Below, piece by piece: positions 61,351 through 63,127 of a stretch of 63,222 nt of DNA. The DNA comes from Paludibacteraceae bacterium. GTDB lineage: Bacteria; Bacteroidota; Bacteroidia; Bacteroidales; Paludibacteraceae. The position numbers and the translations under genes were made by a program. Below the pieces are notes generated by a model. The model had not been told where the DNA came from and ran no database searches. It saw nothing but the letters and a program-made list of their open reading frames with translations. Each line of letters starts with the position of its first letter. Position 1 is the first letter of the stretch. Location of the stretch: the NCBI GenBank assembly GCA_017412245.1, contig JAFPYI010000029.1:1-63222 (forward strand), in the 5' to 3' direction.

Positions 61351-61382
61351 TTTGCATATCTCTGATTTTTTTACTACCTTTG
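61351..61382 (+). promoter_or_regulatory. Promoter upstream of element D
   Basis: TTTG (61351-61354), 20 nt, TACCTTTG (61375-61382). If it drives the 61830 gene, the leader is about 440 nt and includes all of element D. Confidence 0.75.
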
Positions 61383-61471: not shown

Positions 61472-61790
61472 AAAATTATAATTAATATAATTGGGCGTAG
61501 AGATTAAGGTTATTACATCCTTTGGATGTGAGTTGTAGCCACAAGGGCTAACGTTAAATTTATTTATAAGGGAGCACGGGCGGATGCAACTCGCAAGTGC
61601 GCCAAGCACGAATGACTTATATTTGGGGTCCTCGACACAACTTGCAAAGTTGTGGTGGGGAGAGCGGAGGCAATGGTCGCACCTATCAATTAGCGGAGCG
61701 GTTTGATCCTTTGCGACCCATTTGACGAACGCGAATTTTTGTTATTTTTTTATATTTTTGTAAGCGATAAGCGCATTTTTCTTTTTAATC
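61472..61790 (+). repeat. Composite structured element D
   Basis: Left end AAATTATAATTAATATAATT (61473-61492). Cargo D1 (ACATCC-TTT-GGATGT 61515-61529; AGCC-ACAA-GGGCT 61537-61549; AACGTTAAATTTATTTATAA from 61550). Cargo D2 (61623-61720, covarying with element F). Right end TTTTTG, 11 nt, TATTTTTGTAAG, AAGCGCATTTTTCTTT (61736-61785). It lies between a promoter and the 61830 gene. Confidence 0.7.
61623..61720 (+). ncRNA. Candidate structured RNA element, copy D2
   Basis: Fixed parts: TTGGGGTCCTCGA, GGGGAGAGCGGAGGCA and loop TTAGCGGAGCGGT. Variable stems: CACAACTT/AAGTTGTG (loop GCA), GGTCGCA/TGCGACC (61675-61681 with 61712-61718) and ATCAA/TTGAT (61685-61689 with 61703-61707). Copy F has the same fixed parts with different, still paired, stems. 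It has not been matched to a known RNA family. Confidence 0.5.
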
Positions 61791-61829
61791 AACATATTTT
61801 CATTCACAACTTTTTAATTTTAAGTCATT

Positions 61830-62651
61830 ATGAAAAAGCTTCCCATCTTCGCTACCCTCGCTGAAGGGTGCAAAATCGGTTTGGTTAATTTCTTTAGCCT
61901 CCTCGGAGTAACTATCCTCTATCTCCTTACCATCTGGATTCCTTACCTCAACGTAGGTACTACTATTGCTGTCTCTTCTCTCCCGGCAGAATTGGCAAAA
62001 GGAAAAATGATTAACCCTGCTTTCATCTTCGATGGTAAGTATCGTAAGAACATGGGCGAATTCTTTATCCTCTATTCCCTCATGACCGGAGCTGTTGCTG
62101 TGGGACTTCTCTTTGGTCTTATTCCGGGACTCGTTATCTCTATCGCTTGGACGTATGCTATTGTTATCTTCGTGGACAAAGACTTAAATGCATTGGAATC
62201 TCTTCGTGAGTCCAATCGTATTACCTACGGCAATAAATGGCGTATGTTTGGCGTTGTCTTTCTCTTGGTGATTTTCTTCTATATCATCATTGGCTTGCTT
62301 ACTCTTCTTATTTTACCGGAAATAGAGTGGCTCTCTATTTTGGCAGCTGTGCTTATTATTATAGCATCTATCATCCTTATTCCTGTTTCTGTGGGCCTTG
62401 AGGCAGCTATGTACCGTTTCCTCTCTGCTCCGGAAGAACCGAAAGCTGTAGAAGCTAAAGCAGTGGAAGTTAAAGCAGAAACTGCTCCGGCAGAGCCGAA
62501 AGAAGAAATCATTGCTCTGGCTAAAGAGAAAAAAGCTCCAGCTAAGAAAACTGCTCCTAAAAAACCAGCAGCAAAGAAAGAAGCTCCTGCTAAGAAATCG
62601 GCAGCTAAGAAACCTGCTGCTAAAAAAGCAGCTCCGAAGAAAGAGAAATAA
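61830..62651 (+). CDS. Polytopic membrane protein with histone-H1-like Lys/Ala/Pro tail
   Basis: The 273-residue protein has about five to six membrane segments in residues 15-195 (FSLLGVTILYLLTIWIPYL; AVAVGLLFGLIPGLVISIAW; FGVVFLLVIFFYIIIGLLTL). The family resembles DUF975-type or glycerophosphodiesterase-associated membrane domains, but I cannot name it. An acidic/Ala linker (EEPKAVEAKAVEVKAETAPA) leads to about 45 residues of AKKTAPKKPAAKKEAPAKKS-type repeats, as in bacterial histone H1-like proteins. If cytoplasmic, this tail could hold DNA or ribosomes at the inner membrane. A long structured leader (element D) precedes it and a terminator follows. Confidence 0.75.
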   Translation: MKKLPIFATLAEGCKIGLVNFFSLLGVTILYLLTIWIPYLNVGTTIAVSSLPAELAKGKMINPAFIFDGKYRKNMGEFFILYSLMTGAVAVGLLFGLIPGLVISIAWTYAIVIFVDKDLNALESLRESNRITYGNKWRMFGVVFLLVIFFYIIIGLLTLLILPEIEWLSILAAVLIIIASIILIPVSVGLEAAMYRFLSAPEEPKAVEAKAVEVKAETAPAEPKEEIIALAKEKKAPAKKTAPKKPAAKKEAPAKKSAAKKPAAKKAAPKKEK

Positions 62652-62676
62652 TCATCTTCTCTTACCCATCATCAAT

Positions 62677-62700
62677 AAAAGGAGGCCTGCGCCTCCTTTT
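62677..62700 (+). terminator. Terminator after the H1-tailed membrane protein gene
   Basis: AAAAGGAGGC, CTGC, GCCTCCTTTT, then more T. Confidence 0.88.
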
Positions 62701-62709
62701 TTTTGTTCC

Positions 62710-62770
62710 CCCCTTTCTCGCGCGTGCGCGCGTTCCTTATAAATGCACACGTGTGTACGCGTATATAAAC
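62710..62770. other. Alternating purine-pyrimidine stretches
   Basis: TCTCGCGCGTGCGCGCG (62717-62733) and CACACGTGTGTACGCGTATA (62747-62766) are CG/CA-alternating tracts with potential for Z-DNA or cruciform formation. ACGCGCATATACGCGTATAC at about 55501-55520 is similar. Confidence 0.5.
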
Positions 62771-62871
62771 TTCAGAACTGCCATTCGCAGCATTATCCCT
62801 CTTCGCAGCAAAAAAATCCTATACTGATTATCAGCGAGTTACAAAGAAAATGCAAAAAAAATGCACTTGGA

Positions 62872-62903
62872 TTTGGTCAGTTCAAAAATTTGTAGTACCT
62901 TTG
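62872..62903 (+). promoter_or_regulatory. Promoter upstream of element F
   Basis: TTTG (62872-62875), 20 nt, TACCTTTG (62896-62903), then CATCC. The leader to 63128 would be about 220 nt and contains element F. Confidence 0.8.
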
Positions 62904-62949
62904 CATCCGCTTTCGCCCAAAAATTGAGGGGTGTGACTCTCAGAAACTT

Positions 62950-63046
62950 TTGGGGCCCTCGAAAATTTTTAATTTTTGGGGAGAGCGGAGGCACAAGTTG
63001 CCCGTTTATTTAGCGGAGCGGTATAAACAACCGCACACTTGTTGCC
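62950..63046 (+). ncRNA. Candidate structured RNA element, copy F
   Basis: Fixed parts TTGGGGCCCTCGA, GGGGAGAGCGGAGGCA and loop TTAGCGGAGCGGT as in D2. Stems AAAATT/AATTTT (loop TTT), GGCACAAG/CTTGTTGCC (8 bp, one bulged T; 62990-62997 with 63038-63046) and GTTTAT/ATAAAC (63004-63009 with 63023-63028). It is transcribed from 62872-62903 ahead of the ORF at 63128. Confidence 0.5.
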
Positions 63047-63127
63047 GAAAGCGAGTGATCTTTGAAAGAATGTCTATTCATAACAAGATGTAGTACAAGA
63101 ACTGAAAACAATTTTGAAATTTGAAAT

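Follow-up and report, generated by a model that had tools for sequence, protein, structure and literature searches.

The window analyzed here, a whole stretch of 63,222 nucleotides (nt) on the forward strand of contig JAFPYI010000029.1 of a Paludibacteraceae bacterium (assembly GCA_017412245.1), carries two structured segments, D2 and F, which on balance we consider to be copies of a short non-autonomous mobile element, found mainly in one genus of gut Bacteroidales and spreading as a folded single strand. The element is about 100–120 nt long and consists of GGGG-N-CCCC, a variable hairpin, the core motif GGGGAGAGCGGAGGCA, a composite stem that encloses an inner hairpin, and the 3′ end UUGCCGAACGCG. 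Its two domains, a 5′ hairpin and a 3′ composite stem, are conserved on one strand and held by compensatory change; its mobility by insertion is well supported, and we infer a route through single-stranded DNA. The family has apparently not been described before, and no account that we recognized as this element was found in the literature searched, an open-access collection. It joins the small set of bacterial structured dispersed repeats as a family in which the sequence turns over almost completely while the fold persists; its hosts are gut bacteria represented here largely by metagenome assemblies. It raises a testable question, namely how one end reaches the edges of genes without a visible mobilizer. 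It also calls for caution, in that a mobile element can produce compensatory change in stems and a position in leaders, which are usually taken as signs of a regulatory RNA.

The Element and Its Fold

A first-pass annotation of the window had noticed D2 and F as two segments with the same loops and rewritten stems, and the blocks that it listed were found again in both copies: TTGGGG-T/C-CCTCGA, an exact GGGGAGAGCGGAGGCA (at 61657 and 62978) and an exact TTAGCGGAGCGGT (beginning at 61690 in D2 and 63010 in F). The copies had been placed at 61623–61720 and 62950–63046; the 3′ ends lie farther downstream, since the element continues to ..CGAACGCGA in D2 and ..CGAAAGCGA in F, which gives the limits listed here. 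The modules were read from the sequence and, where a helix is named, from an alignment of 30 copies.

61625–61734, plus strand: D2, whole element, inside another repeat and upstream of the open reading frame (ORF) 61830–62651 (R1 model, 96.0 bits, E 2.2e-16; element-free paralogous sites)
61625–61660, plus strand: D2 5′ module, with GGGG-T-CCTC, hairpin CACAACTT/AAGTTGTG and closing GGGG (helix 1)
61657–61672, plus strand: D2 core motif GGGGAGAGCGGAGGCA, exact match
61673–61734, plus strand: D2 3′ module, with composite stem ATGG-TCGC/GCGA-C-CCAT, inner hairpin ATCAA/TTGAT, loop TTAGCGGAGCGGT and 3′ end TTGACGAACGCGA (helices 2–4)
62952–63054, plus strand: F, whole element (R1 model, 96.3 bits, E 1.8e-16)
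62952–62981, plus strand: F 5′ module, with GGGG-C-CCTC, hairpin AAAATT/AATTTT and closing GGGG (helix 1)
62978–62993, plus strand: F core motif GGGGAGAGCGGAGGCA, exact match
62994–63054, plus strand: F 3′ module, with stem CAAG/CTTG, inner hairpin GTTTAT/ATAAAC, loop TTAGCGGAGCGGT and 3′ end TTGCCGAAAGCGA

With up to three mismatches, the 16-mer core has three matches in the window against a mean of 0.24 in shuffles, the third being on the opposite strand with three mismatches; a 13-mer alone is a weak signal (three matches at up to two mismatches against 1.11). The plan common to the copies begins with GGGG-N-CCCC and a hairpin varying in sequence and length, closed by CCCC/GGGG, continues with AGA-GCG-GA-GGCA, a variable stem of 4 bp and a second stem, TCGC/GCGA, in which one base is bulged, and finishes with an inner hairpin, whose loop UUAGCGGAGCGGU is one of at least two loop types, and the end U-UGCC-GAA-CGC-GA. 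Among 103 copies chosen by their similarity to GGGG-N-CCCC, a test that nine others failed, the 5′ end most often begins with GGGGTCCCC (46) or GGGGCCCCC (20), and the model matches listed for genomes of the genus span about 100–126 nt. Three rewritten stems had been described; the stems do differ and yet pair, but GGTCGCA/TGCGACC and GGCACAAG/CTTGTTGCC turn out to be different parts of one composite helix, which reads GGCA-ATGG-TCGC / GCGA-C-CCAT-T-TGAC in D2 and GGCA-CAAG-TTGC / GCAC-A-CTTG-T-TGCC in F. Each copy breaks one conserved pair (TTGACG in D2 where TTGCCG is expected, and GAAAGCG in F where GAACGCG is expected).

That the rewritten stems reflect a selected structure is borne out by the 30-copy alignment, in which standard pairs fill 95.6% of 864 pair cells against 78.3% with shuffled partners, both sides have changed in 161 cells against a shuffled mean of 49.6, and 17 of the 30 pairs show double changes against 12.8, the shuffles keeping the relatedness among copies. 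When partners are slid by 1–3 columns pairing falls to 36–43%, a comparison that favors the tested structure, which was derived from the same sequences. One of the five covariation measures, the number of further pair types, shows no excess (42 against 43.3 in shuffles). These further homologues keep their pairings through compensatory change rather than breaking them. Moreover, in 98 distinct aligned rows there are 64 wobble cells on the strand given here against 32 A-C/C-A cells with one mostly G-T pair omitted, and a count including that pair gives 128 against 33, an excess which makes it more likely that the fold is read on this strand, as RNA or as single-stranded DNA. What is under selection is a strand-specific structure, and the case for it rests on the homologues; by themselves the folding energies are weak evidence (D2, z −1.15, with 25 of 200 shuffles folding as well; F, z −2.19, with 4 of 200).

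Insertion and Flanking Sites

Copies occur in either orientation, and for 164 of them the flanks were joined and searched against a sequence collection for homologues spanning the junction, which exist for 39 sites. At least one clean, element-free homologue was found at 29 of the 164 (at nine of these with no more than three gap columns around the junction), and at 10 further sites the sole type of junction-spanning homologue carries a remnant. Shuffled flanks have words in common about as often as the real ones, which share none of 3 nt or more at 147 sites (145.2 in shuffles), 3 nt at 13 (14.4), 4 nt at two (3.2) and 5 nt at two (0.6), and therefore there is no target duplication at these 164 sites. 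The left flank is strongly A/T-rich, at 79, 93 and 81% of positions −4, −3 and −2, respectively, with T in 61% at −1 (n = 167). No clear pairing links the left and right flanks, only −3/+2 among 12 column pairs reaching 72 against 59.9 (standard deviation 4.8); a hairpin at the base of the target, noticed by eye at a few loci, is not general.

Within the window, D2 interrupts a host repeat, W, whose paralogues are without the element, as matches of the flanking DNA show.

61472–61570, plus strand: left part of W, a 74% match to window positions 1267–1175 and to locus L165
61735–61786, plus strand: right part of W, beginning directly after D2 and matching 1108–1055, 45737, 49472, 49927 and L165 (78–91% identity over 44–56 nt)

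Uninterrupted W is seen at 1010–1420 of the window (minus strand) and at L165 of the same genome, with 70–71% identity over 184–186 columns.

The presence of the element at one locus also differs between species. At groEL, whose 3′ end was inspected in 29 of 30 loci, there are one full copy (the query's own source) and one shortened copy (L297), both of which lie antisense and directly against the stop codon, and the other 27 loci show no copy by eye. Full copies are present at two of 30 tRNA-Gln loci, one of them being the query's source, and L268 retains a short remnant. Several tRNA-Gln loci carry a different folded insert, likewise flush with the tRNA. A sister element some 100 nt long, CTCGGGACG..GCGGACCGA-AAAGCGTAGC..GTGTCAATGCAAGC, abuts the 5′ end of tRNA-Gln at L259, L269, L270 and L271 and has a similar plan with a different sequence; L270 looks like a hybrid. 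Elsewhere the last 11–13 nt are repeated shortly downstream (L025, L387, L401, L403), as though an older remnant had received a new copy.

Distribution

The core motif occurs without mismatch five times in the genome of origin (assembly of 1.42 Mb, 62% complete), in which the covariance model finds the same five strong copies and four weak matches (E 0.04–0.45). Of 101 sampled genomes of this genus, 89 contain model matches at E 0.001, between 1 and 39 each, but in a sample of the order the model matches 2 of 295 genomes, both belonging to this genus. A sample of the family gives 4 matching genomes out of 41 at E 0.01, which represent 3 of 33 genera, and the core motif with at most one mismatch is present in 36 of 200 family genomes, in 6 of 33 genera; beyond the genus the element is thus rare in the samples. 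Because a sequence motif was used to gather the copies, the counts are too low for divergent ones; the genomes are draft metagenome-assembled genomes (MAGs), with genes called as mechanical ORFs and by ARAGORN. Among the matches listed, most of the named public records that carry copies are MAGs of Paludibacteraceae or Bacteroidales, obtained from the gut of ruminants and from other gut samples, and the scan of public records for the 16-mer also gave, among the matches listed, chance matches in other phyla.

No Rfam family matches the window at the gathering score, and at a relaxed score the region 61560–63100 gives 10 matches, all below gathering (best E 0.54). The tRNA finder reported nothing in the window, the phage and plasmid collections hold no match for F, and the exact 16-mer is present in four IMG/VR contigs, none of which has the 3′ end within 160 nt.

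Placement at Gene Edges

In 77 of the 197 copies with enough flank, a gene edge is found no more than 6 nt from the 3′ boundary, taken as the base after ..ACGCG; the 5′ end is as close to an edge in 5 of 150, all at an ATG; 31 of 205 copies without a recognizable 5′ end were excluded from the 5′-side counts. The 3′ end reaches the end of a tRNA or transfer-messenger RNA (tmRNA) in 36 copies (35 tRNA and one tmRNA, none more than 4 nt away) and a stop codon on the opposite strand in 17; 12 copies meet a same-strand ATG and another 12 a −7 box on the opposite strand. These counts include orthologous loci that are not independent, 10 of the 36 tRNA/tmRNA cases being tRNA-Leu. The remaining 120 copies meet none of the edge kinds tested. 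When the boundary is moved 12–42 nt outwards, 56 of 1182 positions fall at edges and none at a tRNA. The edge placement of the 3′ end is a real observation.

The tRNA class divides into 27 copies situated 0–4 nt before a same-strand tRNA or tmRNA 5′ end (11 kinds of tRNA and one tmRNA) and nine after an opposite-strand tRNA (five kinds). For the stop codons, which in this sample are met by the 3′ end and never by the 5′ end, 9 of 17 copies have, by eye, a CAT 21–31 nt past the 5′ end, which could be the start codon of the next gene, so that the element would fill a stop-to-start gap; such a gap limits the insertions that are tolerated, yet it leaves the contact of only the 3′ end with the stop codon unaccounted for. 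Copies before an ATG belong mostly to one subfamily (P2 is TCGG in 8 of 12), and an extra CCCTC..GAGGG-like hairpin was seen by eye in all 10 copies whose upstream flank is listed.

Promoters bear on the proposal that both copies are leaders between a good promoter and an ORF. Two promoter-like sites are concerned.

62872–62903, plus strand: upstream of F (TTTG at 62872, 20 nt, TACCTTTG at 62896)
61351–61382, plus strand: about 240 nt upstream of D2 (TTTG, 20 nt, TACCTTTG)

Both match the consensus of Bacteroidetes-type promoters, which also provided the pattern for the upstream scan. The leader proposal agrees with the position of F; it does not fit D2, distant from its upstream promoter and lying inside another repeat. 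Across the family, a promoter-like site is found within 150 nt upstream of 16 of 19 tRNA-leader copies, 23–64 nt away, and of 4 of 97 other copies (random windows, 142 of 3919); over the 150 nt checked there is none on the element's own strand for the stop-codon (0 of 17), tRNA-3′ (0 of 7), ATG (0 of 8) and antisense −7 (0 of 10) classes. Only the copies directly before tRNAs are mostly promoter-driven leaders.

The element could instead be a functional cis-acting RNA, that is, a leader domain, for example for the processing of tRNA or mRNA or for translation start, copied to many genes. The strong covariation, the G-U bias on one strand, the tRNA/tmRNA leaders with their promoter-like sites and the 12 copies just before an ATG speak for such an RNA. 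However, many copies are antisense to the neighboring gene and have no promoter-like site on their own strand, the nameable flush neighbors share no common theme, and few of the tRNA-Gln and groEL loci hold a full copy, one in each set being the query's source. Sense leaders of functionally related genes, as looked for in a leader RNA or riboswitch, were not what was found: copies stand in both orientations, flush with tRNAs, stops and starts of various genes. A leader RNA was rejected for many copies on the grounds of antisense orientation and missing promoter-like sites and, with presence at one locus varying between species, is not supported as the general description that the first-pass annotation had implied; its observation is confirmed and its interpretation partly supported. 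As an explanation for the family as a whole, we regard a cis-acting RNA as unlikely.

Exchange of Domains and Partial Copies

Counted over 172 copies, P1 occurs as 131 different strings and the 3′ domain in 162 versions. The most frequent P1, GAAAATTTTAATTTTT, has 14 different 3′ domains as partners, and the most frequent 3′ domain is combined with six different P1 strings. The 5′ and 3′ domains are reshuffled among copies in many combinations. A profile search returned 180 full copies, 26 without the 5′ part, 19 without the 3′ part and 15 others. By eye, some partial copies carry an alternative 5′ domain, ..GGACCGA- or ..AGACCGA-AGAGCG (L236, L244, L365, L368), or an alternative 3′ domain, AGAGCGTAG.. 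(L063, L257), so that a wider set of related elements seems to follow the same plan. Of 111 distinct 3′-end sites, 42 lack the core motif, some of them by chance, a backward control pattern for the 3′ end giving seven matches in 61 genomes. The 3′ end is present in 92 of 97 exact core copies with P1; the other five are one unrelated case, two with a one-base change in the end and two with an inserted domain. These two counts at first pointed to simple 5′ truncation.

Such data invite comparison with short interspersed nuclear elements (SINEs), in which case a free RNA with an exact 3′ end, released for example from tRNA leaders by RNase P, would be reverse-transcribed and integrated. The precise 3′ end, its near-constant presence in core copies with P1, the copies lacking both the 5′ part and a recognized replacement (L319, L332, L336, L355, L397, L403), the mosaics, which fit template switching, and the many copies forming tRNA leaders would all follow. 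Against this stand the reverse transcriptase domain RVT_1, found in only 2 of 12 element-bearing genomes, the many copies without a promoter-like site on their own strand, and the partial copies: matches lacking the 3′ part accompany those lacking the 5′ part, several of each kind having a swapped domain, and therefore simple 5′ truncation, weakened as an explanation by this exchange in both directions, is not the rule. We find a SINE-like origin quite improbable. We assign a similarly small chance to a modular superfamily with swappable domains, in which spread through RNA or single-stranded DNA would join an exact 3′ end to mature tRNA/tmRNA ends, start and stop codons and transcription starts; if true, it would amount to a bacterial counterpart of SINEs that chooses its targets in a new way.

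Several single cases extend the range of architectures. In L314 and L343 (contigs 2 and 6 of the genome of origin) the middle is replaced by CACTAGGTTGTTCCCGATTAGCGGGAAAAACCGC.. with both ends kept, and both adjoin an opposite-strand −7 box. Long inserted domains are seen in hairpin P1 of L057, L158, L028 and L107 and in the inner loop of L369 and L405. At L392–L394 of genome G499 another repeat (..GGGTATTTTTTTGCCGAACGCGACTGATAGATTTTTGTGTCTGTATGCC..) bears the 3′ end of the element.

Mobilizer and Comparison With Known Systems

For the folded mobile element that we favor, the proposed mechanism is movement as a folded single strand with a transposase supplied in trans; the fold would be what is recognized, as in the short derivatives of IS200/IS605 that retain only hairpin ends, and the A/T-rich tetranucleotide ending in T just before GGGG would be the left target site. 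Several results weigh against it. The transposase domain Y1_Tnp (PF01797) was detected in 3 of 11 element-bearing genomes, only one over the curated cut-off, and, of the 12 genomes that gave no model hit, in three, each of them over it (no model hit meaning none at E 0.001 under stricter filters; at least one of these genomes, G504, was matched in part at the DNA level). Clustering of 736 ORFs from 126 loci gave no protein family that recurs next to the copies, and none of the clusters is a transposase; the largest are an ATPase of the DUF4143 type at seven loci and a small MAKV-type ORF at six. The genomes are incomplete assemblies, and hence a mobilizer could have been missed. Co-resident copies differ greatly in sequence, whereas those of an element that spread recently would not; the left target shows a degenerate preference in place of a fixed tetranucleotide, and the placement of the 3′ end at gene edges is not predicted by a folded single-strand mechanism. 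Finally, most empty-site homologues are diverged (about 65–90% identity), which leaves room for small losses at the junctions.

An association with reverse transcriptase was not found in most carriers tested, and none of the 12 genomes without a model hit has RVT_1. Nor was one found with Y1 transposases of the RAYT (TnpA-REP) type, by which repetitive extragenic palindromes (REP) and the related REPIN are spread. Like these, the element forms small, dispersed, strand-specific hairpin domains, multi-copy and mostly outside genes. However, REP/REPIN are palindromes of 20–50 nt after a GTAG-type tetranucleotide, and the element, at 100–120 nt, is more than twice the size, complex, with two domains and without such a tag before a simple palindrome; Y1_Tnp was, furthermore, not detected in 8 of 11 carriers. 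A RAYT-driven repeat is very improbable.

Known systems were compared using PMC8266576, PMC7290912 and PMC2864571. According to PMC7290912, members of the IS200/IS605 family of insertion sequences (IS) are short, make no target duplication, and have a hairpin towards each end, a strand-specific fold and a short left target. Palindrome-associated transposable elements (PATE) of this family resemble the element in their short length and absence of target site duplication, and probably also in their hairpin towards each end, strand-specific fold and left target sequence. For the specific tetra- or pentanucleotide that PATE have 5′ of the insertion, the element shows the strong but degenerate W-W-W-T at −4 to −1, and for their subterminal hairpins, recognized on one strand, two covarying hairpin domains with a wobble bias to one strand. 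Unlike PATE, it is without a TnpA gene in most carriers tested and no parent IS was seen; its degenerate left target, swappable domains, rewritten stems and 3′ end at gene edges are further differences. Bacteroidales motifs of Rfam, such as Bacteroidales-1 (RF01693) and Bacteroides-1 (RF01694), named in PMC2864571, are similarly lineage-restricted, structured and backed by covariation, but the element in the window matches none of the Rfam families at the gathering score. It is best described as an insertion-type dispersed element with exchangeable folded domains, whose behavior is closest to short IS200/IS605-derived elements, although no resident transposase was detected in most carriers tested.

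Associated Sequences

W is itself a second dispersed repeat family, with several full or partial copies in the window (AAATTATAATTAATAT.. GTTAAATTTATTTATAAG .. TATTTTTGTAAG..GCGACGCATTTTTC). Four copies of the element, F (window positions 63055–63070), L072, L077 and L194, are followed within a few nt by a boxA-like sequence, GTTCTTTGAC / GATCTTTGA. Small ORFs starting with MAKV..GI.SV.G or alike, phage-like in style, lie near copies at L041, L043, L063, L084, L135 and L199, and at two of these loci, L084 and L199, the copy directly abuts the ATG.
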